A stretch of DNA of 27,372 nucleotides, taken from positions 1-27,372 of the IMG/VR virus record IMGVR_UViG_3300050821_006588; one strand, written 5' to 3'. The notes under the pieces were generated by a model, which saw only the letters and a list, made by a program, of their open reading frames with translations, ran no database searches and was not told the DNA's origin. This stretch comes from a virus. The position numbers and the translations under genes were made by a program. Of the stretch, positions 4,230-17,988 are shown one piece after another (position 1 is the first letter of the stretch; each line of letters opens with the position of its first letter).

Positions 4230-4700
4230 TTACACTCCGTAGGTATTGCTGTTGTGCTGCAGGACGTCGAGCTTGAGCCGCCGAGAGGAGTGGTGCCCCG
4301 CGCGGGGCACGTAGACCACCGGCTCCATGTGGCGATCCGTGAGCCATTCTTCGTCGATGCCGAGTTGCCCGAGGTAGTCCTTCGACTGCCAGTCATCTCC
4401 GATCACGATCTGCGTCGCACCCGACAGGTCGATCGTCTCGGCTGCCGAGTCGCCCACCGCGCGCTGGCAATTGACCATGACACTGTCGACGTAGCGGCAC
4501 GCGTCGACCATCGTCACCCGGTCGGCGAGCGGCTGGACCGGCGGGAAGCCCTTGTACGCGGCGATGAACTCGTCCGAGTTGAGCGCGACCGTCACCGAGG
4601 GGAAGTCGTCATCGGATTTGGACAGCTCCCAGCACGTGCGGAACAGCGCGACGTGACCGGGATGCAGGAGGTCGAAGGTGCCGATGGTCAGGACTCGCAT
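4230..4700 (-). CDS. nucleotidyltransferase of the glycerol-3-phosphate cytidylyltransferase (TagD/RfaE) type
   Basis: A 156-residue protein starting at ATG 4700 behind gagg. The opening MRVLTIGTFDLLHPGH contains the HxGH signature of the cytidylyltransferase fold, which binds the nucleotide phosphates. GHHSSRRLK near the C-terminus stands in for the second signature (ISSTxxR). Family members join CTP (or ATP) to a phosphorylated polyol or sugar, giving CDP-glycerol, ADP-heptose and similar donors. The substrate here is unknown. The gene overlaps the preceding glycosyltransferase by 13 bases, so the two may form one glycan-modification unit acting on the cell envelope, the virion or DNA. The longer in-frame start at 4907 falls inside the glycosyltransferase gene and was rejected. 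Confidence 0.8.
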   Translation of the reverse strand: MRVLTIGTFDLLHPGHVALFRTCWELSKSDDDFPSVTVALNSDEFIAAYKGFPPVQPLADRVTMVDACRYVDSVMVNCQRAVGDSAAETIDLSGATQIVIGDDWQSKDYLGQLGIDEEWLTDRHMEPVVYVPRAGHHSSRRLKLDVLQHNSNTYGV

Positions 4701-5428
4701 AGCTGCCTCAATTTCTCGATGTCGCGGTGGAGTTGCTCGGCCTGGTAGGTCTCGTACGCCGCGCCGTCGTGCCGGACCATCTCGGCCGAGTTGCTGTGCT
4801 GGTAGCTCGCGTCCATCGTGCCGTGGCCGGCAGCCGGGTGCAGGTGCCGCAGCATGATGTCCTCGCGGTAGACCAGCGACCCCAGCGCGGTGCCCCAGTC
4901 GCGCCACACCACGTCGATGTAGAGGTGCCGGAACTCGGGAGGAGCCAGGTAGCCGAGCTCGGCCGGGATGCGCGCGTCCATCACCACGGCGGTGGGGATG
5001 TCCGGCCGCAGGCCGTCGTTCGGGTAGGTGATGGTCGGCCGGTCGCCGAGCTCGACCTCTTCGAGCAGCCGCTCATCCCACCCGACCGTCTCGGGCAGCA
5101 CGTCGTCACCCATGAAGCCGACTGTGGTGAATGGGTAGCTGGCCAGCTTCGCCCACCTGTACATCTGGTTCAGCGGCTCGACGCACCCGGCGCGGTCGGC
5201 AGGGAGCTCGGCGAAGACCATCGAGTCGAAGCGGTGAACCCCTTCGCGGGACCATCGGTTCTCAGCGATGACGAACAGATCCAGGTACTCGTCGAGGTCT
5301 GGATCGTCCTCACCCACCCCGATGACGATGGTGGTGTCCTTCCGGGTGACGGTCTCGGCGCACGCTTCCAGCAACCTGCGCACGTTCGCCGGTCGGCCTC
5401 TGGTCGGGACCAGCATGGTGAGGCTCAT
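4688..5428 (-). CDS. GT-A fold glycosyltransferase (family 2-like)
   Basis: A 246-residue protein whose ATG 5428 overlaps the lipoprotein stop (ATGA). It begins MSLTMLVPTRGRPANVRRLLEAC, the usual N-terminal strand and loop of GT2-type enzymes that grips the nucleotide. FMGDDVLPETVGWDE (about residues 104-118) carries the acidic metal/donor motif with DD. Then come a VVMDAR strand and a His/Trp-rich acceptor region (FRHLYIDVVWRDWG). No membrane helix was seen. It would transfer a sugar or polyol from an activated donor, and the downstream nucleotidyltransferase could make that donor. The acceptor is unknown. Confidence in the fold is high and in the specific role low. Confidence 0.78.
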   Translation of the reverse strand: MSLTMLVPTRGRPANVRRLLEACAETVTRKDTTIVIGVGEDDPDLDEYLDLFVIAENRWSREGVHRFDSMVFAELPADRAGCVEPLNQMYRWAKLASYPFTTVGFMGDDVLPETVGWDERLLEEVELGDRPTITYPNDGLRPDIPTAVVMDARIPAELGYLAPPEFRHLYIDVVWRDWGTALGSLVYREDIMLRHLHPAAGHGTMDASYQHSNSAEMVRHDGAAYETYQAEQLHRDIEKLRQLCES

Positions 5429-5769
5429 GAGCAGAATCCCGTCCGTTGCAGCGCTTCGATGATCATCGGTTTGGTCTCGTCCCAGTAGGGGTCAACGGTG
5501 GTCCAGTTCGTGGCGCCGTAACCGGTCGCGTAACTGGCGCAGATGCGTTGGTGGTTGTCGTCGGCCGTCTGCGCCCAGCTCGCCGGCATCGTCGCCCCCT
5601 CGACGTGCAACTGCTCGTAGAGAGCCACGCCGGGGTCGGTCTGCGCGGTGAGCGCGTCGTGTGGCATCGGGCGCCCGAGCTCGGTTCGGTGCGAGCAACT
5701 CGACAGCAGGGCGAACAGGCCAACGAGCATGACCCCGGCGAGTGCAATCTTGATCCAGTTCTTCGTCAT
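5425..5769 (-). CDS. small secreted lipoprotein
   Basis: Start ATG 5769 was chosen because AGGA lies eight bases upstream; ATG 5778 is possible. The 114-residue product starts MTKNWIKIALAGVMLVGLFA and continues LLSSC, a classic lipoprotein signal peptide with lipobox. After processing the Cys would be lipidated and about 90 residues exposed outside the membrane. Two further Cys (QRICASY and the penultimate residue) may form a disulphide. Small phage lipoproteins of this layout often block superinfection or DNA entry; that role is inferred here. It heads the sub-cluster with the glycosyltransferase and nucleotidyltransferase, suggesting a cell-surface alteration set. Confidence 0.7.
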   Translation of the reverse strand: MTKNWIKIALAGVMLVGLFALLSSCSHRTELGRPMPHDALTAQTDPGVALYEQLHVEGATMPASWAQTADDNHQRICASYATGYGATNWTTVDPYWDETKPMIIEALQRTGFCS

Positions 5770-5780
5770 GTCAATCATCC

Positions 5781-5798
5781 TGTCAAGTGAGCTTGACA
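5781..5798. promoter_or_regulatory. TGTCAAG inverted repeat, operator-like
   Basis: TGTCAAG and CTTGACA form a perfect 7-bp inverted repeat with a four-base centre, 11 bases upstream of the lipoprotein start and just after the stop of the preceding gene. TTGACA would suit a -35 box, but no -10 box at proper spacing was found on either strand. TGTCAAG is also the 3' half of the mycobacteriophage L5 stoperator consensus, a resemblance only. It may be a repressor site or a short hairpin. Confidence 0.4.
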
Positions 5799-5807
5799 CA
5801 CGCAACC

Positions 5808-6059
5808 CTATATGTCCGTTTTGTGTTGCCTCTTTTTGGCCTGGTCGTACCGCTGCTGCGCGCCCTGCCGAGTGGGGCCCAGCGCCGCGAAGCTGTGCCC
5901 GGCGACGTCATGGCCCTCGATCAGCTCCAGATCGATCAGCGTGCCGATCAGGCTGTTGAGAGCGCGGAGTTCGCGGAGGGTGCGGACAGCCGAGCTGCCG
6001 GCGCGGATTCGGCTCTCCGTCACCCGCGCCGACAACTCATCCCATTGCTGACCATTCAT
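5808..6059 (-). CDS. conserved-looking helical protein of unknown function
   Basis: An 83-residue protein starting at ATG 6059, which overlaps the preceding stop as ATGA. It is predicted to be mostly helical, with charged heptad-like stretches (RTLRELRALNSLIGTLIDLELI) and a basic C-terminus (QQRYDQAKKRQHKTDI). There is no Cys, signal peptide or membrane segment. I do not recognise the family. The gene ends 39 bases before the lipoprotein start; the inverted repeat at 5781-5798 lies in that gap. Confidence 0.55.
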   Translation of the reverse strand: MNGQQWDELSARVTESRIRAGSSAVRTLRELRALNSLIGTLIDLELIEGHDVAGHSFAALGPTRQGAQQRYDQAKKRQHKTDI

Positions 6060-6418
6060 TCGTCGTCTGCTTCGGCCTGCGTCGGCTCACTGGAGAACGT
6101 GCCATTGGCCAGTCGATGGAAAGCGAGTCGGCCCTGGGCGTGGCGCAGATCGGTGTTGACGCGACGGAGGTCAGTAGTCAGTCGCTCGTTTTCCTTTGCC
6201 AGATTGTATTTTATTTCCAGCGACTCGACGTTATTTTCCGCCATCTGACGATACTTTGTGGCCCATTCAAACGAAGTGAATCCGTTGTGTACATTCGTTT
6301 CGAGAGTGGTGACCTTTTCCCGAAGCACCGCATTCTGAGCCTTCAGGTCATTGATTGTTTCCATCATAATATCGATCCCGTGCTGAACCGTTCGGTAACC
6401 GTCATCCGAGAAGGTCAT
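6056..6418 (-). CDS. coiled-coil protein of unknown function
   Basis: A 120-residue protein starting at ATG 6418 (ATGA overlap with the whiB stop). Residues 15-95 look like a long coiled coil (METINDLKAQNAVLREKVTTL, then ENNVESLEIKYNLAKENERL). The tail is acidic (TQAEADDE). The DNA of this gene is clearly lower in GC than its neighbours, with ATTT and TTAT codon runs around 6190-6380. That hints at recent acquisition from another source. Function is unknown; a scaffold or DNA-binding partner is conceivable. Confidence 0.6.
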   Translation of the reverse strand: MTFSDDGYRTVQHGIDIMMETINDLKAQNAVLREKVTTLETNVHNGFTSFEWATKYRQMAENNVESLEIKYNLAKENERLTTDLRRVNTDLRHAQGRLAFHRLANGTFSSEPTQAEADDE

Positions 6419-6768
6419 GATGCTCGCTTTCGTCCTGATCGTGTGTGCAGTCGGGTTGTGCCGTCGAGCTGTCGAGCCAACGCCATCCGGGCGCGGGCCA
6501 TATCGAGTGTGATGTACTGGTTTCCGTAGACACCCACCTGTGGCACGTCGGTATACGTCGACCGGCTGTCCCGGCATAGCGCGACCACCGGGCAGCTGGA
6601 GCAGTAGGCGAGTGCGTCCCTGATGCGCGGGTGAGCGTCGGCACCGTCGAGGTTGTGCTCGCCACCATCCCGCTGGTCCAGAGGCAGGAAGAGGTCGGGG
6701 TCGGCCGAGGAGCACGCCGCATCGCGCTCCCAGTGATGGTCGGTGTTCGGGAGGTAGCTGATGGTCAT
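6415..6768 (-). CDS. WhiB-family iron-sulphur transcription regulator
   Basis: A 117-residue protein starting at ATG 6768 (ATGA overlap with the methyltransferase stop, tgaggt upstream). It has the four WhiB cysteines: C19 in DAACSSADPDLF, then C56-x2-C59-x5-C65 (YCSSCPVVALC), which ligate a 4Fe-4S cluster. GVYGNQY follows, replacing the usual GVWGG turn, and a basic C-terminus (RSGRKR) stands in for the DNA-binding tail. WhiB-like proteins bind the main sigma factor and alter promoter choice. In phages some act on host whiB genes and superinfection. The family strongly points to an actinobacterial host. The longer frame back to 7227 is antisense to methyltransferase sequence and is not used. 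Confidence 0.85.
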   Translation of the reverse strand: MTISYLPNTDHHWERDAACSSADPDLFLPLDQRDGGEHNLDGADAHPRIRDALAYCSSCPVVALCRDSRSTYTDVPQVGVYGNQYITLDMARARMALARQLDGTTRLHTRSGRKRAS

Positions 6769-6785
6769 GCCGACCTCAGTTCCCG
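6765..6785 (-). repeat. 21-bp direct repeat, copy 1 (stop, RBS and start junction)
   Basis: Identical in all 21 bases to 7418-7438. It encodes the last codons and TGA of the methyltransferase (RELRSA), contains tgaggt as ribosome-binding site and ends in the ATG of whiB. With copy 2 it frames the methyltransferase gene exactly. Confidence 0.85.
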
Positions 6786-7421
6786 AAATAGGTGACCACC
6801 GATGTATTCGGTATAGGCAGGAGGAATGGCCTGTGACAATTCTTTGCTGTTCATCCAGTCGATACCCATAGCCACGGAGGCTATTTCTTGAGTAACGTCG
6901 CCTGTGACTGACGTGTGCATTCCAAGATCCCAATCGTACCGACGCTTTTTCGTGCTGGTAGGCGCGGAATGCCCGACCGGATGGGGTGGTTGAGGCACCG
7001 TGAAACCGGAACAGCGGAACTTCCGGTGCCGAACGGTGCGCAGGCCGAAGTGCCGGTCGGCACACAGGGTCAGGTTGCTCGGGTACGCGGCCGGGAACCG
7101 GGCGGCCATGACGTTCTCCACCACGTACGGCTTGCCGGACTGCTCGCACAGCTCGATGAAGCGTTCCAACTGCCACCCGGTACCTGTCTTGCCCGCGCGG
7201 CTCGTGAGCGGCGTGTGATCCCGGCATTCTGGTGACCCGTGAATCGCGTCGGCCAGTGGTGCCAGGTGCTCGAACAGTTCGAACGCGTCACCCTGGAAGA
7301 ATTCGAACGGGTATCGGGGGTGTGGTTCGATGTCGATGCCGATCACCCGGAAGCCGGCACGGTGATAGCCCATGGCCGCGCCACCCGCGTTGCTGAAGAA
7401 ATCAAGCAGGGTGGGCATCAT
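6765..7421 (-). CDS. DNA cytosine C5-methyltransferase, compact form
   Basis: A 218-residue protein starting at ATG 7421 (ATGA overlap; ATG 7418 is also possible). Motif I is LLDFFSNAGGAAMGYHRAGF (SAM binding, residues 5-24) and IGIDIEP binds the cofactor ribose. Motif IV is SPEC with candidate catalytic C66, where the usual sequence is PPCQ. Motif VI is ENV (102-104), and RHRKF near residue 135 corresponds to the QxRxR motif VIII. There is very little target-recognition region, and the protein is much shorter than bacterial Dcm enzymes, as is common in actinophages. Role: methylation of phage DNA, probably against host restriction. The gene is flanked by 21-bp direct repeats. The change around the catalytic Cys could alter or weaken activity. 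Confidence 0.8.
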   Translation of the reverse strand: MMPTLLDFFSNAGGAAMGYHRAGFRVIGIDIEPHPRYPFEFFQGDAFELFEHLAPLADAIHGSPECRDHTPLTSRAGKTGTGWQLERFIELCEQSGKPYVVENVMAARFPAAYPSNLTLCADRHFGLRTVRHRKFRCSGFTVPQPPHPVGHSAPTSTKKRRYDWDLGMHTSVTGDVTQEIASVAMGIDWMNSKELSQAIPPAYTEYIGGHLFRELRSA

Positions 7422-7438
7422 GCCGACCTCAGTTCCCG
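7418..7438 (-). repeat. 21-bp direct repeat, copy 2
   Basis: Exact copy of 6765-6785, 653 bases apart. It covers the last codons and stop of the zinc-motif gene (again ending RELRSA), the ribosome-binding site and the ATG of the methyltransferase. Confidence 0.85.
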
Positions 7439-7765
7439 CCACGGCCGAGGCCGCTCGATCTGGCCGTCCCGGCGAGCCCGGTTGAGCACGGCCTGGAGGG
7501 TCACGGCTGGCATGTTCAGGCGCCGAGCGGCTTCCGGGCACGTCACGCACCGGCCGCCGACGTGCTCCCACTCTTCGAGGACCTCCTCACGCGGCCGGTA
7601 GCGACGCTCGTGGTCGATGAGGGTGCCGGCGTACCGGGCGGCGTCATAGCACTTCCGGCACAGCCCGCGCCCGGCATGAGCGCGGGTTCCGGTCGCTTCG
7701 CTGATCGGCAGGGCGTTCGGCCGCAGGAGGTGCCCACAGACGCGGCAGTCGCGCGGGGTGTTCAC
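7418..7765 (-). CDS. zinc-ribbon protein with C-terminal helix-turn-helix-like region
   Basis: A 115-residue protein starting at GTG 7765 (GTGA overlap). CRVCGHLL (from residue 7) and GLCRKCYDAAR (about 34-44) supply four Cys for one zinc site. Later CPEAARRLNMPAVTLQAVLNRARRDGQI reads like a helix-turn-helix with a recognition helix. It also has CVTC before that. These features suggest a small DNA-binding protein, perhaps a regulator, with no enzymatic motif. Its C-terminal sequence RELRSA is identical to that of the downstream methyltransferase because both lie in the 21-bp repeat. Confidence 0.65.
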   Translation of the reverse strand: MNTPRDCRVCGHLLRPNALPISEATGTRAHAGRGLCRKCYDAARYAGTLIDHERRYRPREEVLEEWEHVGGRCVTCPEAARRLNMPAVTLQAVLNRARRDGQIERPRPWRELRSA

Positions 7766-7959
7766 AGCTCACCCGCGTACTTCTCCAGCACGATCGCATC
7801 GTGATCGGCCGCGCGCAGGTCAGCCAGCACGACCGTCTCGGCGGCCATCAGCAAGCCAGACTTGGTGCCGTTGAGCGACTCGGCGATCTGAGTGACAAGG
7901 GCACTCGCTTCGACGAGTGCGGTGTGGAGTCTGGCAAAGGCTGCGGTGGTGTCCGACAT
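7762..7959 (-). CDS. small helical protein of unknown function
   Basis: Start ATG 7959 was chosen for the strong TGAGGAGA ribosome-binding site five bases upstream; the longer frame from 7989 has none. The 65-residue product MSDTTAAFARLHTALVEASA... is Ala/Leu-rich and probably entirely helical, with an acidic end. No motif was recognised. It is coupled by GTGA to the zinc-ribbon gene. Confidence 0.6.
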   Translation of the reverse strand: MSDTTAAFARLHTALVEASALVTQIAESLNGTKSGLLMAAETVVLADLRAADHDAIVLEKYAGEL

Positions 7960-7997
7960 TTCGATCTCCTCAGGGGCTGGGGCCAACAACAGAGACG

Positions 7998-8504
7998 TTA
8001 CTCGTCGTCCTCGGAAGGGTCAACACTTATTGACAGCGGATCTGGCCAACCCAGATCGTGCACGGCGGCGTAGAGGGCATGCCGAGCGGCGTCGGCAGCG
8101 TGGGGAAGGCCCCGGAACTTGCTCGCGTGGAACGCTGCGCCGAAGCGCTTCGGAGTTGCCCATGGCTTTACCTGAGCGGCCGAACGCAGCACGAACGGGT
8201 TGGGCAGCGTCTTCACCGCGCCGATCAGGTCCCGGGCATGCTGGCCACCGGCACGCTGCCCTCTCGTCGACGCTCGGCCGAGTACGAAATCCTCGCACGC
8301 GACGAAGAGCTTCCCGTCCTCCTGCACGCTGGTGAGGCGCCTCACCAGCGCGACTAGGTCAATCGGGTAGAGCTCCGACTTCGAGAGCTGCCACGGCGTC
8401 GCACAGTAGGCCACGGGGGGCTTCCAGCTGTAGACGCCGCGCCGCGGGCGAACCAGGCACAGCCCGGTCGTGCCGCCGGGGTCGATCCCGAGGATGGCGG
8501 TCAT
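7998..8504 (-). CDS. RuvC-like Holliday junction resolvase
   Basis: A 168-residue protein with the RNase H-like fold of RuvC: GIDPGGTTGLCLV with D8 at the N-terminus, ACEDFV with E71 in the middle, and HAADAARHAL with D138 near the end. These supply the acidic metal-binding residues. RuvC-type enzymes cut four-way junctions symmetrically; in phages they resolve branched DNA before packaging. The GC-rich basic region GRASTRGQRAGGQ after E71 may contact DNA. The ATG 8504 overlaps the stop of a seven-codon frame that follows a strong ribosome-binding site (8501-8524), so it may depend on translational coupling. It sits directly after the SNF2 helicase, consistent with recombination-dependent replication. 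Confidence 0.78.
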   Translation of the reverse strand: MTAILGIDPGGTTGLCLVRPRRGVYSWKPPVAYCATPWQLSKSELYPIDLVALVRRLTSVQEDGKLFVACEDFVLGRASTRGQRAGGQHARDLIGAVKTLPNPFVLRSAAQVKPWATPKRFGAAFHASKFRGLPHAADAARHALYAAVHDLGWPDPLSISVDPSEDDE

Positions 8505-8524
8505 GGGATGCGCTCAAGAATCAT
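8501..8524 (-). promoter_or_regulatory. seven-codon minicistron coupling helicase to ruvC-like gene
   Basis: AGGAGG, the best ribosome-binding site in the operon, lies seven bases before ATG 8524, which overlaps the helicase stop as ATGA. The frame from that ATG reads MILERIP and stops at 8501-8503, overlapping the ATG of the resolvase as another ATGA. The resolvase start has no good ribosome-binding site of its own, so ribosomes finishing the minicistron probably restart on it. Alternatively the AGGAGG acts directly at an unusually long distance. Confidence 0.45.
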
Positions 8525-10317
8525 TTCAGTCCTCCTAGGACTTCGCGGGCAATACGGGGATCTTCGAGCAACTCGGCCAGCGAGCGAGCCTTGTCCCGCA
8601 GGACACTGCGAACGCGGCTCTCCACGGTCTTCTCGGCGACCACATCGACGATCTCGATCGACTCGTGTATTTCGCTGCCGATGCGGTGCGCACGGTCCTC
8701 GGCCTGCGACGCCTCGACGTAGGACCATGGCCGCTGCAGGAACACCACCGTGCTGGCTGCGGTGAGGGTCAGGCCGACGCCACCGGCCGAGGTGGTCGCG
8801 AGGAGAACCTGACGCTTGCCGGATTGGAACTCGTCGACGTTGAGGGTGCGTTCGCGCGCGGTCTGTCCGCCCACCACCGTCGCGGTCGAGTACCCGGCGC
8901 GCCGGCATTCCGCGTCGGCTAGGTTGATCAGCTGCCTGCTCGGCGCGAAGACCAGCGTCTGCTTGTCGGTGCGCTCGCCGAGGATCTCCAAGAGCGCGTC
9001 GACCTTCCAGCTCGGCAGCTTCAGCGTGACGTCGAGCTTCTCCACCTCCTCCATCTCGCCGAAGGGGTTCTCCTTCAGCTCGGTGTGACTGGTGACGTCG
9101 GCGGCGGCCGAGGCGAGCTGGGACAGCCGAGTGAGCTGGGCGAGGACGGTGGGCGCCGGCAGCTCTTTGCCATCATCGAGCTGGGCAAGCATGTCCGATT
9201 CCATCTGGTCATACTGCTTGCGGTACTTGTCCGGGATGGCGACGGAGCGGACCGAGTAGACCTTTGGTGGCAGCTCGGTGAGCACGTCGGCCTTACGCAG
9301 GCTGCGGTACTGGCCCATCAGACACTGCCGTAGCTCCGGCTCCCGCTCCGAGAGGCCGATGACGGTATCGCCATAGTCACCGGGGATCGTGTTGAGGTAG
9401 CGGCGGCTGTAGCGCTCGCGCGAGGGCCATGCGGCCGGGTCGACCGCGAAGAGGGTCGGATGCAGGTCCCCGGCGTTGTGCGTGATCGGTGTGCCGGACA
9501 GCGCGATGGTGACCGGCGTCTTCGCCGCGAGCTTGCGCACCACCTGGGACTGCACGGCCTGCGGGTTCTTGATCATGTGGCACTCGTCGATCACCATCGC
9601 GCCCGCGCTGAGCTTCGTAATCGGCCCACCCGAGGACGAGTACGGGTCCATGTCGTTGCGCGCGGTCGCGTAGGCCACCACGAATACGTCCGCGTCGGTC
9701 TCGGCCAGCCGACGCCGGGTGCTGGCCGCTCCCCGCCACGCTGCGACCTTCAGCGTGGTCCAGGTCTGCCACGCCGACACCCATGAGTCGATGACCGAGT
9801 TCGGGCACACCACGATGATCGGCGCGGCGATCGGGAGCTGCCCTCGATCGCGCAGGGCCAGGATGGCGAGGATGGCCGTCAGCGTCTTGCCGGTGCCGGG
9901 GTCATCGAAGACGAACCCCCCTCGGCCGGTGGCAGCGGCGATCGAGGCTCCGGCGAGTTGATAGTGTCGGGGTGCCGGCGCGTCCGTTCGTAGTTCGGAC
10001 GCGCCGGTCACCGGCTCGATCCGCGCCCGCTTCAGCAACTCGCCGGTCAGCCAAGCCGTGTACCGCGCGCCGGGGTGCCAGAGCGGTCCGAGTTCGGCGC
10101 CGAGCTGTACGGCCAACGGCCAGCTGAGCTCGTACTGGACACCCCCCTTCGGCTTCGTCGCCCGAGCGGTGACGGTGATGTCGGAGAGATGGCCGAGGGT
10201 GGTCGGCTCGAACTCGCCCTCGGCCGTGACGATGACGACGTTCTGGCCGTCTGCCGAGAGCTCGCCGAAGAGGTGCTGCTCGGCGAGTGCCGGCGCGAAG
10301 TCTTGAGCCGTGGTCAC
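8521..10317 (-). CDS. SNF2/SF2-family DNA helicase
   Basis: A 598-residue protein starting at GTG 10317 (GTGA overlap). The helicase motifs are all visible: DDPGTGKT (138-145, Walker A), DECH (244-247, Walker B), SGTP (274-277, motif III), GGVGLTLTAAS (motif V) and QAEDRAHRIG (motif VI with the arginine finger). The pattern QxxDRAHRIG is characteristic of Snf2-type ATPases. Such enzymes use ATP to translocate on double-stranded DNA and remodel protein-DNA or branched complexes. Many actinophages carry one beside replication and recombination genes, as here with the RuvC-like, Cas4-like and SSB-like genes. The N-terminal 110 residues are a non-catalytic domain. A 12-bp-stem inverted repeat lies within the coding sequence at 9975-10007. 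Confidence 0.9.
   Translation of the reverse strand: MTTAQDFAPALAEQHLFGELSADGQNVVIVTAEGEFEPTTLGHLSDITVTARATKPKGGVQYELSWPLAVQLGAELGPLWHPGARYTAWLTGELLKRARIEPVTGASELRTDAPAPRHYQLAGASIAAATGRGGFVFDDPGTGKTLTAILAILALRDRGQLPIAAPIIVVCPNSVIDSWVSAWQTWTTLKVAAWRGAASTRRRLAETDADVFVVAYATARNDMDPYSSSGGPITKLSAGAMVIDECHMIKNPQAVQSQVVRKLAAKTPVTIALSGTPITHNAGDLHPTLFAVDPAAWPSRERYSRRYLNTIPGDYGDTVIGLSEREPELRQCLMGQYRSLRKADVLTELPPKVYSVRSVAIPDKYRKQYDQMESDMLAQLDDGKELPAPTVLAQLTRLSQLASAAADVTSHTELKENPFGEMEEVEKLDVTLKLPSWKVDALLEILGERTDKQTLVFAPSRQLINLADAECRRAGYSTATVVGGQTARERTLNVDEFQSGKRQVLLATTSAGGVGLTLTAASTVVFLQRPWSYVEASQAEDRAHRIGSEIHESIEIVDVVAEKTVESRVRSVLRDKARSLAELLEDPRIAREVLGGLK
9975..10007. repeat. 12-bp inverted repeat within the helicase gene
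   Basis: ccggcgcgtccg (9975-9986) is exactly complementary to cggacgcgccgg (9996-10007) across nine bases. It lies within the codons for the segment joining the N-terminal domain to the ATPase core. It could pause transcription or be chance in GC-rich DNA. Confidence 0.5.
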
Positions 10318-11825: not shown

Positions 11826-12629
11826 TTACTTGGACACAGTCCCCGGACAGCCGAGGACCGAGTTGTCGTGGGCCGCCTGCGGGCGGTACGCGGGGCAGAA
11901 GAAGCACTCGTCATGGCTCGGCTCGCGTGGCACCTGATCAAGCGTCATCCGTGCCATCGAGACCTGAGCAGCCAGAAGCTTGCGACGCTCGGTATCGGCG
12001 AACACCTCACCCAGCAGGCGCACGATCTCGGCATCGAACGCATGCTCCCACACGTACAGACCGTCCAGAGTGGACCGTGTGCGCGGGTAGGCGATAATGG
12101 CGATCCGCTGTACCGGCTTGCCGGCGCGCAGGTAGCCGAGGCCGTAGAGCGCGAGCTGGGCAACGTACTTGCGGGGTGGGCCTTCCTTCCGCTGGATCTT
12201 CGCCAGACTGCTGTCGCCGAGGCACTTGTGATCGAGCACCGTCGCGGTCTGAGTGTCGTAGAGGTCGGCAGTCCCACTGTGGTCTGGGTGCGGAACAACG
12301 CGGTTCTCGGTGATCCAGCGCTGCGGGTCGTCAGCAGCGAACGCATCGGCCAACCATGCGTGCAACGCGGTGCCCACTACCGAGGGCCACGGATCAGCGA
12401 CGTGATTGGTCGGCTGCTCGCGCAGCAGCTTGCCGACCACCTGCCGGTCGCAGGACACCCCCAGCTCGGAGGGCCCCAGGTGCACCTGTTGGCTGCGCGG
12501 CGCGAAACTGGCCTGCCGAGCGACAAGCTGCCGTACGTGCTCGGCCATCGACTGTGCCCACGGGGTATTGCCACTCGGCGGAGGCGGCGCGGCGCCGGAG
12601 GACACGAACTGATCCAGGATCGAGGTCAT
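11826..12629 (-). CDS. Cas4/RecB-like PD-(D/E)XK exonuclease with Fe-S cluster
   Basis: A 267-residue protein starting at ATG 12629 (ATGA overlap). ELGVSCDRQ contains C60, and C242, C245 and C261 (ECFFCPAY and GCPG) lie at the end. One N-terminal plus three C-terminal Cys is the 4Fe-4S arrangement of Cas4 and AddB-type nucleases. H90 in GTALHAWL, D122 in GTADLYD and VLDHKC with D133 and K135 form the PD-(D/E)XK active site, and YVAQLALYG with Q158 is the RecB QxxxY-like motif. Role: exonuclease producing single-stranded ends for recombination in replication or repair. No CRISPR array or other Cas gene is present, so a CRISPR role is not suggested. Confidence 0.82.
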   Translation of the reverse strand: MTSILDQFVSSGAAPPPPSGNTPWAQSMAEHVRQLVARQASFAPRSQQVHLGPSELGVSCDRQVVGKLLREQPTNHVADPWPSVVGTALHAWLADAFAADDPQRWITENRVVPHPDHSGTADLYDTQTATVLDHKCLGDSSLAKIQRKEGPPRKYVAQLALYGLGYLRAGKPVQRIAIIAYPRTRSTLDGLYVWEHAFDAEIVRLLGEVFADTERRKLLAAQVSMARMTLDQVPREPSHDECFFCPAYRPQAAHDNSVLGCPGTVSK

Positions 12630-12772
12630 AGGACAATCCATTTCTGGTGGCACCGTGTGCACTCCATGAGGCCAACAGGCCCCAGCAATACGTGGTGGAC
12701 TATGAGACTGCTGTTGTGCGGCACGACGTGCCCCGTCCACCAGCACCACGCTTTGATCAGTCGGCGTTTCAT
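12626..12772 (-). CDS. very small zinc-binding protein
   Basis: A 48-residue protein starting at ATG 12772 (ATGA overlap at both ends). CWWTGH near the start and MECTRCHQKW near the end give Cys/His ligands for one zinc ion, with a hydrophobic stretch (SSLIVHHVLLGPVG) between. Small proteins of this form are common in actinophages; their function is unknown. Confidence 0.6.
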   Translation of the reverse strand: MKRRLIKAWCWWTGHVVPHNSSLIVHHVLLGPVGLMECTRCHQKWIVL

Positions 12773-13270: not shown

Positions 13271-13366
13271 ATGCTACAGCAATCGCTCATCTTCCGCCCA
13301 ATACACCGCCGGATCGCTACCGGTGGTGTTGTTCTGCGCGCAGACTATCGAGGAGTAACCCTGTGA
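13271..13366 (+). CDS. possible 31-codon leader gene before the replisome gene
   Basis: ATG 13271 is preceded by TGGAGG with a nine-base gap, and the frame ends in a GTGA overlap with the start of the large replication gene. The product (MLQQSLIFRPIHRRIATGGV, then VLRADYRGVTL) has no recognised motif. The good ribosome-binding site and the overlap suggest a coupling leader peptide. The downstream gene also has its own AGGAG, so coupling may not be required. Confidence 0.45.
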   Translation: MLQQSLIFRPIHRRIATGGVVLRADYRGVTL

Positions 13367-16300
13367 CTACAGAGCACGATCTCGACGTTGCCCGGCGCCT
13401 GATCGATTTCGGCGTCCCGGTATTCGTCGCCAAGGCCGATCCGACCAGCAAGCTCGGATTCAAGCTGCCGTCGAAATGGCAGACCACAACCCCGGTCAAG
13501 GCTAATCTGCTCGCCTGGCGGGAGGGTGATGCACTCTGCGCGGTGATGGGTCACGGCCTCGATCTGATCGACATCGACCCGCGCAACCTCGGCGACAAGC
13601 CACTACTCTGGCCGGTTACGCCACCGCCCGTTGTCGCCAGTGCTACGACGCCGAGTGGTGGTATCCACCTGTTCGTCCTCAGCCACGGCGTCCTCAGCCA
13701 CGGCGTCCTCAGCCACGGCGTCCTCAGCCACGGCGTCCTCAGCCACGGCGTCCGCAGCCGAGACGGCATCCTGCCGGGCGTCGACTTCAAGGGTGGTGAC
13801 CACGGGGAGGGCCACGGCTTCGCCTTCATCGCGCCGACCGTGAAGACCTCCAAGACGACGGGCGAGCTCGCGGGCTACCGGTGGACGTCGGTGGACTTCG
13901 ACGAGCTCAACGAGGTTTCCAAGATCAAAAATCTCGAGGTTGGCCGACCGTTCGCTGACTGGGTGCGGTCGCTCCACGGTGTTTCCAAGACCGCACCGGA
14001 AACCGACGACACGGCGAGCTACATGGACGCCGGCAGTCGCATCTTCCACACCCCCGAGACCGCCTGGTCAGCGATCCACCGGGAGCTGGCCACGGTGTGC
14101 GGATGGACGCCGGACGCCGGGGTCAACTTCCGCACCACCCTCCTGCGTGCGGCCTTCGTCCTCGGTGGCTACGTGGCCTCGGCGCTGGAGGGGTTCACAA
14201 CAGACCAGGCTACGGTGCTCCTCCTCGACGCGGTCAGGGGCGTCTACCTCAACCCCGACGACGACGACCGACTGTGGATCGAGCAGGGCCTCACCGATGG
14301 GCAGCTCCGGCCGTTCAACGTTGCCGATCGGCCGCCTACCCCGGTTGCCGGCGTCGTCTCGCGTGACCCATGGCCCGGGGAGCGGAGGGAGTTCCGGCCA
14401 CCGGTTGGGGTTGTCTCCCACCAGGCCGTCGCCGAGTGGGTGTTGTGCTACCAGTGGCCACGGTGGCGTCACCTGCACGAGACGACGACCTGGATCGTGA
14501 ACGAAAAAGAACGGTGGGGTGACCGCCCGGGCAAGCGCCTCGGCGACGCGATCCTGTCCGACACGGTCCGTTTCATGCCGGTCGGCGTCAAGCCGGACGA
14601 TCCGAAGGACCAATCCAGCTGGACCCCGGATAATTGGGCATATCACTGGTTTCAGACATTCTCCAGCTCACCCAAGTCTGCTCCGTTCGCCCGTAAGATC
14701 GACGCGCTGATCGTGGCCGGATACGACCCGAGCACCGCGTTCGACCGGGATATGGACAGCGACGGCTCCGTCTTGTGGGCAGGTGGTGTGCCGTGGAGTC
14801 TTACCGAGCCGGGCGAACGGGTCGACACCGAACTGCTCACCCCGCACCGCTGGTCGGCCGCTACCAACCCGGACTGGAGTGTGGCGACGCCGGCATGGAA
14901 TGCGTTCCTCGCTGCGGTCTGGCCGGACGCCGAGGTGCGCAACTGGGCAATTCGCGTATTGTCGATCGGCGCTACGGCCGAAGCGGATGCCGCGCTGCCG
15001 GTGCTCTACGGGCCTGCCGGCCGGGGCAAGACATCAGTCATCGCGCTCATCATGCGAGCTTTGGGCGATTACGCCCATATCGCCGATGCTCGGCTGATCT
15101 CCAAGGCCAACGCTCACCAGTCGATCAAGTACGCGCTCAAAGGCCGTCGACTCTCGTTCATCGACGAGGGCCCCCGAAACAACGAGACCGTCCGGGAGGC
15201 GTTGAAAGAGCTGACCGGTGGGGGCAACCTGACCGGCAACGCCATGGGCTCCAATCCGGTCACCTTCGCGCCCACCCACACACTGGTGATGACCAGCAAC
15301 GATGAGCCGCACATCACCGACGATGCGATCCGGCGACGCATCCGCGCGATTCCCTGCGAAGGCGACTCAGAAGACGTCCGCTTGGCCCGTAGGCGCGTCG
15401 AACTGGCGTGGAAGGTCGAGGCGCCCGGGGTGCTGGCTCAGCTCATGACCGAGGCGGCTGCGTGGCTGGCAGACCGCGATTCCGCCCTCAGCTCGGCAGC
15501 GCCGATGGAGCTGCAAGTGCGGACCGCCGAGATGGCCGAGGGGCAGGACCCGGTCAAGGCGTGGGTTGTCGAGTGCACCTCGGAGAACCAGACCGGTACC
15601 AAGGCCAGCGCGCTGCTCACCGCGTTCAACGAGTGGGGTCGAGGACAGGCGATCAAGCCGTTCAACTCGACGGCTTTCGGCAACTCGTTGAAGCGGCTTG
15701 GCGTCGTCAAAGAGCACCGCAAAGACGGTACTTACCACCTGATAGTGCTCAATGTTGGTGGAGGATTTACGTACTTTGGTCCGCCGAGGGATGTGGTGAC
15801 GAGTAAACCCGTCACGGAGGCACAGTCGTCACCTGTACCCTTCACCCCCGAAAACACGAGGTCAACCCCGGTTTTCTCTGATGCTGGTGATGGGTTGACG
15901 AGTTCAACACGAAGTACACACACAAAAAACCAAACAACACACACACACTCATATAACAGCAATAGTGACGAGGGTCGTCACCCGTCACCTTCGGCCGATA
16001 AAACCGGGGTTGACCTGCGAAAACAACCGGTGACGGCTACTGGTGACGACCCCATCACCCATCACCCCGACCCAAAAATCGCCGAAAAGCCGCAATTGAG
16101 CCGAACCGCCATGAAGGCGCGGGTCAAGGCTCAGGCGAAGGCCGAGGCAGCCTCGGCAGCTGCCGGTGCGATGATCGAGTTGCCGGCACTCGTCCGGCGC
16201 GGGCAAGCACCCGTCTCGATCTCCTCGGCCGCGGCCGTAGACGCGGTTCGCTCGGCCGTTCGGCGTGACGGGGCGCTGACGGTCGACATCGAGCACAACG

Positions 16301-17988
16301 GCTACCCGCTCGGCCACTCGCTGTTCGTCGTGAAGACGGTCCAGCTCGGCGACGCGCTGGAGGCCGTCGTCTTCGATCCTGAAGCCGACGCGTCGAACAT
16401 CCGCATGCTGATCGAGCAGGCCCCCGTACTCAAGGCGTTCAACGCCATGGCCGATCTGAGCTCGCTCGCCTACGCCGGTCTCGGCGACCATGACGCCATG
16501 TGGGCGAAAATGGAGGATGCGGCCATTCCGGCCAAATTGTCCGATCCTGCTGGCACGAGCAACTCCGATGGCCTCAAGGACACCGCAGCGAAGCTCCTCG
16601 GCAGCGCGGCCGTCGCGCCGGACGCCGAAGTCGCCAAGGACGCGCTCTTCACGACGGCCGGATGGCTAAAATCGCCCAAGTGGGCCGAAACGCCCATCGA
16701 GCGCAACGGATGGGCGCAAGTCGACCCGCGCTGCTCGACGATGGTGGTCTACGCCGCCTCTGACGTCCTCGACACGGCGCCGTTGGCCGCGTTGCTACCG
16801 GCGCACAAACCGGCGCTTCTGGGGCGCGAGCGAGACGTACAGCGGGCCACAGCCCGGCTCTCGTTCACTGGACTCAAGCTCGACCACGAGAGGGTTCTGG
16901 ACAAACACCACGAATTCACCACGAATCGGGCAAAAGCACTGGCTGACTGCGCGGCCCTTGGCGTTCCCGACCCCACCGACGCCAAGGTGGCGCGCAGGCT
17001 GGCCGAGCTCGGTGCGCCCGTTCCGCGCACGGCTGCCGGCAACCCGTCGGTGCGCAAGGGCGTTATCGAGCCGTGGGCAGCTCGGCAGGATGAGATCGGC
17101 GAGGTCGTGCGCGCGGTGATCGACAAGCGGCACTGGAGCACCGGGCTGAGCTTGATCTTGAATCCGTGGAAGTCTCTCGTCGAGCAGGGTGACGGCCGCG
17201 TGCGCAGCACGATCTACACCCTCGGCGCGGACACCGGCCGCATGTCGAGCGTCCGGCAGAACATGCAACAGGTGTCCAAAGAGGGTGGTTTGCGGGAATG
17301 CATTCAGGCTGATGACGGAAAGCGGCTCATTTCGGCGGACTTCAGCGGCGTCGAAATCCGTGTCATGGCGGCATTGTCCGGTGATCCAGCGCTCAAGGCG
17401 ATCATCGAATACGACGATGCCCATCCCGGTCAGAAGATGGACCTGCACTGGATCATCGCCCGGATGGTCTACGGACCGAACGCGACGAAGGCGAATCGCT
17501 ACAACGTCAAGTCCGACGTGTTCGGCCGCTTCTACGGCGGCGGCGCCGAAACGCTGGCAGAGGAGTCCGGTGAGACCGTCGAGACCACTCAGCGCGTGCT
17601 CGACTTCCTTGATCAGCTTGCACCGACGATGACGGCCTTCGCCAAGCACATCAAGGCGTCCGTCAAGAATGGCTACCGCGAATATCCGACCTACAGCGGG
17701 CGCACGATCATCTTCGATCCGCGCTTCCCTCACAAGACACCGAATTTCGTCGTGCAGGGAACGGCACGCGAGCTCGCGGTGGACGCGATTCTGCGGTGGG
17801 AAGACACGCCGTATGCCGGTGATGTGGTGTTGCCGGTGCACGACGAGATCGTGGCTCAGGTGGACGAGGACAACGCCGAGGGCGCACAACAGGAGCTGTT
17901 GCGGTGCATGACAACCGACCTCAACGGCGTCCACATCAAGGCTGAGCCGGGTGATGGTCCGAGTGATCACTGGTGGTCGGCCGTGTGA
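13363..17988 (+). CDS. fused Prim-Pol primase, SF3 helicase, DEDDy exonuclease and family A DNA polymerase
   Basis: A single 1541-residue protein starting at GTG 13363 with AGGAG seven bases upstream. Residues 1-190 are a Prim-Pol primase: DID with D70/D72, SGGIH with H102 and DFKGG with K143. About 520-690 is a superfamily 3 helicase: GPAGRGKTS (550-558), FIDE (D601/E602), MTSN (N646) and IRRRIR (657-661), followed by a winged-helix-like region. Residues 806-935 are a Ser/Thr/Pro-rich linker. About 965-1140 is a proofreading exonuclease: DIE (D975/E977), FNAMAD (N1027/D1031) and YAASD (Y1130/D1134). About 1145-1541 is a PolA-type polymerase: TGRMSS, motif A DFSGVEIR (D1326/E1331), motif B R1379-K1383-F1387-Y1391 and motif C HDE (1493-1495). 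All catalytic residues are present and no frameshift was seen, so one polypeptide could prime, unwind, copy and proofread. Confidence 0.92.
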   Translation: MTTEHDLDVARRLIDFGVPVFVAKADPTSKLGFKLPSKWQTTTPVKANLLAWREGDALCAVMGHGLDLIDIDPRNLGDKPLLWPVTPPPVVASATTPSGGIHLFVLSHGVLSHGVLSHGVLSHGVLSHGVRSRDGILPGVDFKGGDHGEGHGFAFIAPTVKTSKTTGELAGYRWTSVDFDELNEVSKIKNLEVGRPFADWVRSLHGVSKTAPETDDTASYMDAGSRIFHTPETAWSAIHRELATVCGWTPDAGVNFRTTLLRAAFVLGGYVASALEGFTTDQATVLLLDAVRGVYLNPDDDDRLWIEQGLTDGQLRPFNVADRPPTPVAGVVSRDPWPGERREFRPPVGVVSHQAVAEWVLCYQWPRWRHLHETTTWIVNEKERWGDRPGKRLGDAILSDTVRFMPVGVKPDDPKDQSSWTPDNWAYHWFQTFSSSPKSAPFARKIDALIVAGYDPSTAFDRDMDSDGSVLWAGGVPWSLTEPGERVDTELLTPHRWSAATNPDWSVATPAWNAFLAAVWPDAEVRNWAIRVLSIGATAEADAALPVLYGPAGRGKTSVIALIMRALGDYAHIADARLISKANAHQSIKYALKGRRLSFIDEGPRNNETVREALKELTGGGNLTGNAMGSNPVTFAPTHTLVMTSNDEPHITDDAIRRRIRAIPCEGDSEDVRLARRRVELAWKVEAPGVLAQLMTEAAAWLADRDSALSSAAPMELQVRTAEMAEGQDPVKAWVVECTSENQTGTKASALLTAFNEWGRGQAIKPFNSTAFGNSLKRLGVVKEHRKDGTYHLIVLNVGGGFTYFGPPRDVVTSKPVTEAQSSPVPFTPENTRSTPVFSDAGDGLTSSTRSTHTKNQTTHTHSYNSNSDEGRHPSPSADKTGVDLRKQPVTATGDDPITHHPDPKIAEKPQLSRTAMKARVKAQAKAEAASAAAGAMIELPALVRRGQAPVSISSAAAVDAVRSAVRRDGALTVDIEHNGYPLGHSLFVVKTVQLGDALEAVVFDPEADASNIRMLIEQAPVLKAFNAMADLSSLAYAGLGDHDAMWAKMEDAAIPAKLSDPAGTSNSDGLKDTAAKLLGSAAVAPDAEVAKDALFTTAGWLKSPKWAETPIERNGWAQVDPRCSTMVVYAASDVLDTAPLAALLPAHKPALLGRERDVQRATARLSFTGLKLDHERVLDKHHEFTTNRAKALADCAALGVPDPTDAKVARRLAELGAPVPRTAAGNPSVRKGVIEPWAARQDEIGEVVRAVIDKRHWSTGLSLILNPWKSLVEQGDGRVRSTIYTLGADTGRMSSVRQNMQQVSKEGGLRECIQADDGKRLISADFSGVEIRVMAALSGDPALKAIIEYDDAHPGQKMDLHWIIARMVYGPNATKANRYNVKSDVFGRFYGGGAETLAEESGETVETTQRVLDFLDQLAPTMTAFAKHIKASVKNGYREYPTYSGRTIIFDPRFPHKTPNFVVQGTARELAVDAILRWEDTPYAGDVVLPVHDEIVAQVDEDNAEGAQQELLRCMTTDLNGVHIKAEPGDGPSDHWWSAV
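13675..13749 (+). repeat. five tandem 15-bp units in the primase domain
   Basis: Five exact copies of gtcctcagccacggc encode VLSHG five times (residues 105-129). They lie between the primase His motif (H102) and the DFKGG motif (K143). A sixth, degraded unit follows. Because the unit is 15 bp, slippage would change length without breaking the frame. Confidence 0.95.
15796..16048. other. putative replication origin: GTGACG iterons around a CA/AT-rich tract
   Basis: Exact GTGACG or its complement occurs eight times: 15796, 15810, 15827, 15965, 15976, 15983, 16030 and 16043. The extended consensus is GGTGACGRSY. The copies fall in all three codon positions of the polymerase gene, so protein coding does not explain them. 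Copies at 15965 and 15976 form a hairpin with 7-bp arms. GGTGATGGG variants occur at 15885 and as the complement near 16052-16066. Between the two clusters lies a CA/AT-rich tract (about 15901-15963) suited to duplex opening. Lambda has its origin similarly inside its initiator gene. Confidence 0.6.
15859..16016. repeat. 17-bp inverted repeat flanking the CA/AT-rich tract
   Basis: Bases 15859-15875 (aggtcaaccccggtttt) are the exact reverse complement of 16000-16016, 124 bases apart. The arms enclose the CA/AT-rich tract and three of the iterons. As single-stranded DNA they could close a large stem-loop. Confidence 0.85.

Follow-up and report, generated by a model that had tools for sequence, protein, structure and literature searches.

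The virus record IMGVR_UViG_3300050821_006588 of IMG/VR, analysed here over its whole length of 27,372 bases (the window), is a contig classed as linear and for that reason probably a fragment. It contains a gene that joins, in a single chain of 1541 amino acids, a PrimPol (archaeo-eukaryotic primase, AEP) domain, a superfamily 3 (SF3) helicase, a DEDDy 3′–5′ exonuclease and a family-A DNA polymerase (Table 1). The initial annotation had read one uninterrupted frame here, encoding four modules with intact motifs, and both statements hold: the frame opens with GTG behind a ribosome-binding site and has no internal stop, and the modules are borne out by Pfam and PHROGs, by predicted folds and by catalytic residues. 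The domain search that it proposed returned DNA_pol_A, DUF5906 and, weakly, DNA_pol_A_exo1 in Pfam, with the PrimPol domain recovered through a fold match. The gene and its fusion are confirmed.

Table 1. Features of the fused gene and of its neighbourhood in the window; residues are numbered in the 1541-residue product.
Feature	Position	Strand	Residues	Basis
Whole fused gene (putative replicase)	13363..17988	+	1541 aa	Open-frame analysis
Shine-Dalgarno-like GAGGAG, 7 nt 5′ of the GTG start	13350..13355	+		Sequence, start-site scan
PrimPol domain	13369..13995	+	3–211; D70/D72, SGGIH 98–102, D141	Fold match, profile comparison, conserved residues
15-bp tandem repeat, 5.7 copies, coding for (VLSHG)n between PrimPol motifs II and III	13674..13759	+		
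Helical middle region, D5_N-like portion ahead of helicase	13996..14787	+	212–475	Model, Pfam matches of relatives
SF3 (D5/DUF5906-type) helicase	14788..15762	+	476–800; Walker A 550–557, Walker B D601/E602, N646, R659	Pfam, PHROGs, fold, conservation
Variable linker	15763..16209	+	801–949	Linker comparison
DEDDy 3′–5′ exonuclease	16210..16812	+	950–1150; D975, E977, D1031, Y1130, D1134	PHROGs, Pfam, residues, fold
Family-A DNA polymerase	16813..17985	+	1151–1541; D1326, E1331, R1379, K1383, F1387, H1493-D1494-E1495	Pfam, PHROGs, residues, fold
Cas4/RecB-like exonuclease, divergent neighbour	11826..12749	-		PHROGs, E 3.8e-53
SF2-type DNA helicase	8521..10317	-		PHROGs DNA helicase, E 7.9e-95

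In the C-terminal half, DNA_pol_A of Pfam matches residues 1222–1528 (E 4.4e-36), the PHROGs polymerase family matches residues 968–1533 (E 4e-72), and DNA_pol_A_exo1 is matched weakly over residues 953–1142, with E 0.016 for the whole protein and 1.1e-4 for this piece alone. The model of this half has a predicted local distance difference test score (pLDDT) of 83.1 and a predicted template modelling score (pTM) of 0.78, and resembles phage DpoZ, Bst, Klenow and apPol. The polymerase residues listed in Table 1 are invariant across 58 exonuclease–polymerase rows, as are the exonuclease residues wherever they are present (D975 and E977 in 55/55 rows, D1031 in 57/57, Y1130 and D1134 in 58/58), and we take their catalytic roles to be those of the corresponding residues in the two families. 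Motifs A, B and C, the exonuclease residues and the Klenow-like fold together identify a family-A polymerase with DEDDy proofreading. A 391-aa open frame lies antisense to the polymerase on the minus strand (16795–17970), and is probably a mere by-product of the codon bias that comes with high G+C.

The helicase is matched by the SF3-type Pfam family DUF5906 (residues 548–658, E 7.6e-9) and by a PHROGs primase/helicase family (501–788, E 1e-51), and residues 342–800 of the model fit the D5 and E5 helicases with Z about 25; this structural match thus begins within the helical middle region, and relatives match D5_N in Pfam. G550, K556, E602, N646 and R659 are invariant in 43 helicase rows and D601 in all but one of them. 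An AAA+ core with Walker A, Walker B, the sensor asparagine, the arginine and a D5-like fold makes this a D5-type SF3 helicase.

No match was found in Pfam or PHROGs for the N-terminal 500 residues, and other evidence was therefore sought for the PrimPol assignment. Residues 1–800 were modelled with AlphaFold2 from an alignment with 28 relatives; the model has a mean pLDDT of 84.9 but a pTM of 0.57, so that its single domains are good and their placement relative to one another is not. Residues 3–211 superpose on the PrimPol domain of pRN1 ORF904 (3m1m, Z 12.4 over 164 residues at 3.5 Å; 1rni, Z 11.9), and the top Foldseek match of the whole model is full-length AsfvPrimPol (E 5.8e-17); in the second structural aligner, the rows listed cover residues 342–800 well and the N-terminal match depends on the ORF904 rows. 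When profile was compared with profile, the window domain matched the Prim-Pol domains of three relatives, designated L139, L128 and L150 (single-pair E 3.4e-6), and Pfam recognises Prim-Pol directly in L139 (E 6.5e-27), which has the same architecture as the window protein, and in L128; plain BLAST of the window N-terminus against the L139 domain was not significant (E 0.048). D70, D72, H102 and D141 are all present, the first two being at least 90% conserved across 29 sequences, and both the fold and the motifs hhhDhD, sxH and hD/hE place the domain in the PrimPol superfamily. The (VLSHG)n expansion is absent from L007–L010 in the alignment, and model pLDDT is low in that repeat region (residues 110–125).

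Single-sequence scans of viral contigs with the whole protein or with the helicase alone gave no matches, and it was alignment queries that revealed the family. A search with a profile built on the polymerase part gave 80 loci, and a second profile gave 65 in viral contigs and six in genome contigs, viz. those of Micromonospora zingiberis, Micromonospora sp. MW-13, Labedaea rhizosphaerae, Haloactinopolyspora alba and metagenome-assembled genomes of Pseudonocardiales and Jatrophihabitans. Besides the window, 46 distinct loci encode the exonuclease–polymerase fused to a long N-terminal portion within a single open frame, a count from which nine family frames truncated by a contig end and all identical copies (five within the family, and the unfused L025) were removed. 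The helicase profile matches 45 of these loci, and the exception, L097, has Pfam DUF5906 (8e-19) and D5_N. By a tally made by hand, L098, L101, L113 and L122 are truncated short of the primase region, and PrimPol was recognised in 41 of the remaining 42, L106 being the one without. The fused protein type is found again in dozens of related viruses, either uncultured or integrated, and this number of homologues lowers the claim to uniqueness made for the gene, leaving the gene itself confirmed. The exact fusion is nonetheless as unusual as had been supposed: none of 50,697 phage genome records covers 80% of the window protein or of L133, the prophage copy in Micromonospora zingiberis, whose best matches among those records are primase/helicase and polA genes that lie side by side but are separate, and the 476 plasmid records, out of 72,556, that match L133 include none over 80%. 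In the family to which Micromonospora zingiberis belongs, 200 genomes were searched; a close member is present in the starting genome only, and the prophage form is accordingly rare there; two further genomes of the 200 carry relatives of 31–34% identity in frames of 680–707 aa.

Some members carry inserts. Intein-like inserts lie within the fused frames of L090, L136, L138 and L140, that of L090 at the helicase Walker A with a match to LAGLIDADG, and those of L136 and L138 (with Hint, intein-splicing and HNH matches) and of L140 at polymerase motifs. Among the large-contig relatives, PolA is split, or has a large insert between polymerase parts, in L141 (7623–9215 and 9368–10300) and L142 (7842–10958).

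The exonuclease–polymerase tree, of 101 rows, sets 43 ordinary phage polymerases, all unfused, apart from a clade of 58 rows, of which 45 are fused, seven cut and six unfused. One piece of the frame-shifted L128 was counted as fused in this tree, the three rows L136, L138 and L140 were omitted for their intein-like inserts, as were rows truncated by a contig end, and L024, which has 370 open residues before the exonuclease, was scored unfused by hand. The unfused L011, L012, L132 and L134, which are large contigs, are sister to the fused L126, and L103 and L150 form a nested pair. Fused and unfused states need three changes on the tree; there may have been one gain and two losses, or more than one gain, of the fusion. 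That all fused forms make up one clade is rejected on this tree by the approximately unbiased (AU) test (p 1.6e-5, 45 fused rows versus 11).

The polymerase keeps company with a primase and helicase whether it is fused or not, since unfused members carry separate partner genes. In L011, a gene for PrimPol with a RecA-like ATPase precedes the polA frame in the same orientation, its end lying about 200 bases from that frame; in L134 and L142 a gene of this kind is adjacent to polA but on the opposite strand. L012 carries SF3 as a gene of its own, and L103, nested among fused forms, has separate DnaB-like, DnaG-like and PolA genes (L103:3042–9827). The DnaB-like and DnaG-like genes were identified by reading their sequences, and L103 would be a natural replacement of the primase–helicase half; relatives of these two genes were found in 0/46 fused loci within the available flanks.

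Judged by sequence comparison, the chain is a mosaic in which the N-terminal half is replaced while the exonuclease–polymerase stays, because exonuclease–polymerases that resemble one another closely are joined to primases of unrelated types and even to helicases of different types. The exonuclease and polymerase of L091 and L092 are 84–85% identical, against 52% for their helicases and 8% for their PrimPol regions, and for L007 and L009 the corresponding values are 78–82%, 55% and 21%. Two PrimPol types require at least eight changes on the exonuclease–polymerase tree (42 labelled rows), compared with a mean of 13.1 and a minimum of 8 when labels are shuffled, so the types are somewhat clustered but clearly exchanged. 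L128 has PrimPol with an AAA_25 (RepA-like) domain instead of SF3, and its exonuclease is frame-shifted in that contig. This repeated exchange of primase types, which goes beyond the initial annotation, is the most surprising side of the family. The two L128 frames, at 5469–8330 and 8110–9795, represent either another helicase type in the architecture or a broken copy.

We consider it likely that the 1541-aa protein serves a tailed phage of actinobacteria as its main replicase, combining tethered priming, unwinding and proofread copying. The N-terminal PrimPol would make primers, and the SF3 helicase would open the fork as a ring, as do its D5 and E5 relatives, whose structures are hexameric; one ring could then carry six PrimPol modules and as many tethered polymerases. 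The Klenow-like C-terminal module, on its long flexible linker, would take over the primers and extend them with proofreading, and priming, unwinding and synthesis would in this way be physically coupled. As the unfused relatives imply that the activities can work in trans, the leash would raise local concentration rather than create a new activity. The fusion may derive from, or interchange with, separate primase–helicase and polA genes, the primase–helicase half having been swapped repeatedly and the exonuclease–polymerase half retained. A broader picture, quite possible but more tentatively held, is of a widespread and almost uncultured family of one-chain replisomes with a plug-in design, i.e. 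a constant proofreading PolA, primases and helicases of different types that are joined to it in frame by a disordered linker and swapped through recombination, and a hexamer with several tethered polymerases at the fork.

Several observations weigh against a main replicase working as one tethered chain. The 27 kb contig is a fragment, and further replication genes may lie beyond its ends; the N-terminal 500 residues have, as mentioned above, no family match of their own; and with separate polA genes in six family members (L103, L150, L011, L012, L132 and L134), covalent linkage is not essential. The linker, moreover, is hypervariable, and in the window its codon bias is weaker than that of the domains (G+C at third codon positions, GC3, of 0.58 versus 0.80–0.83), as might equally be expected of a segment that is cleavable or of little importance. 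This bears on the strongest of the alternatives, though an unlikely one, that one translated chain is cleaved within the linker, or that translation begins there in part, and that primase–helicase and exonuclease–polymerase act as two proteins. Family linkers are long (130–212 residues, median 172.5), variable and rich in Ala (13%), Pro (12%), Gly (10%), Thr (9%) and Ser (8%), relatives with unfused genes exist, and proteolytic cleavage is reported for PREX, an apicomplexan plastid enzyme (PMC9631997). In-frame start codons with a 5–6 nt Shine-Dalgarno match occur inside the linker in 23 of 45 loci; they are, however, weak, they do not share positions and they are also present in the other two frames (16/45 and 6/45), so that the scan of the 45 loci gave no internal translation start at a consistent position, and the sole candidate in the window linker is a TTG, codon 845, whose match spans 5 nt. 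The open frame is, in addition, unbroken through all 46 linkers (45 loci and the window, 8014 codons), which have 0 in-frame stops, whereas the remaining two forward frames contain 244 and 272. Cys-x-x-Cys pairs in the linkers of L008 and L010 suggest that this subgroup has a small zinc-binding element there.

It is improbable that the PrimPol domain no longer primes and only binds DNA or an origin, with primers coming from the host or another partner. Such a role could be read into the divergent N-terminus without a Pfam or PHROGs match, into the (VLSHG)n expansion between motifs II and III and into the exchange of PrimPol types, as might befit an origin-specific part, but the conserved residues of the domain and its fold match to ORF904 speak against it. 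A part in recombination-dependent repair or host damage, rather than bulk phage replication, seems very improbable: the adjoining Cas4-like exonuclease and SF2 helicase could make a recombination module, but those window genes that were scanned revealed no second primase, polymerase or ring-type helicase, and both D5-type helicases and proofreading PolA belong to the standard replication equipment of phages. An artefact of assembly or sequencing, for which one could cite the single metagenomic contig of the window and the frame shift inside the L128 exonuclease, can be dismissed, as the same fusion stands in 46 other distinct loci, in separate contigs and in assemblies of cultured actinobacteria.

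The idea that a one-chain replisome would be without precedent did not survive comparison with known systems, as PREX, HelPrimPolB/GP55 and a ‘Pyrovirus’ polyprotein precede it. The packing principle is known already; the order PrimPol–SF3–exonuclease–PolA was not found in the papers that the literature searches listed, as far as their titles, the openings of their abstracts and selected passages go, although it may be mentioned in a 2016 survey of viral replication genes (NAR gkw322). PREX is described as combining primase, helicase, 3′–5′ exonuclease and family-A polymerase in one gene, and so has counterparts of all four modules of the window protein (PMC9631997, PMC6523293). It differs in being encoded by a eukaryotic nuclear gene, with a product reported to be cut after import. 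Furthermore, the primase and helicase of PREX are TOPRIM/DnaB-like, not PrimPol/SF3, whereas the window protein has PrimPol and SF3 folds and no Toprim or DnaB match in Pfam at E up to 1. HelPrimPolB proteins are reported as SF3–PrimPol–PolB fusions (PMC7544198), and for GP55 of lactococcal phage 1706 helicase, primase, polymerase and 3′–5′ exonuclease activities are reported as measured (PMC12205980). Both, as described, share with the window protein an SF3 helicase, an AEP primase and a proofreading polymerase in one phage chain, but they place helicase first and primase second and end in a family-B polymerase, whereas the window order is PrimPol, SF3 and then family A. The Pol of ‘Pyrovirus’ OS3173, a polyprotein of 1606 aa given as DUF927–exonuclease–PolA (PMC7689252), likewise has a primase/helicase-like N-terminal half before an exonuclease–PolA half, is fused or separate depending on the member, and is reported with a DEAD-like helicase and a Cas4-RecB-like nuclease as neighbours, as in the window. 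Its N-terminal half is, in contrast, DUF927/COG5519, with no PrimPol domain reported in the passages available, and the window protein has DUF5906 and no DUF927 at Pfam E up to 1. One more protein related in kind is TV-Pol, reported in fusion with a D5-like helicase.

Among actinophages, Streptomyces phage Shady and Arthrobacter phage IttyBittyPiggy have an SF3-type primase–helicase gene just upstream of an exonuclease–PolA gene; modules of this type differ in having two genes and a TOPRIM primase, and their polymerases are 28–30% identical to that of the window. PrimPol and helicase share a chain in pRN1 ORF904, NrS-1 PrimPol, AsfvPrimPol (C962R) and poxvirus D5/E5, which gave the best fold matches to residues 1–800 and which, to our knowledge, have no exonuclease and no second family-A polymerase. 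The window protein is thus another case of primase, helicase, proofreading and polymerase in one chain, assembled each time from different parts, and the advantage of covalent coupling therefore becomes testable. Fused and unfused pairs, and pairs with 84–85% identical exonuclease–polymerases but unrelated primases, are ready-made natural experiments that bear on how a polymerase accepts a new primase–helicase, and the protein could serve as a single-enzyme, primer-free, proofreading amplification tool.

The surrounding genes are those of a tailed phage, encoding terminase, portal, protease, scaffold, capsid and connector proteins as well as a collagen-like tail fibre, a glycosyltransferase, a DNA methyltransferase, a DNA helicase and the Cas4-like exonuclease. 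Relatives of the Cas4/RecB-like exonuclease lie near 19 of the 46 fused loci and those of the superfamily 2 (SF2) helicase near 33, and both are likely to belong to the same replication/recombination module as the replicase. Genes at 4230–7571 match heptose kinase/adenylyltransferase, glycosyltransferase and DNA methyltransferase families, and possibly modify DNA or the surface.

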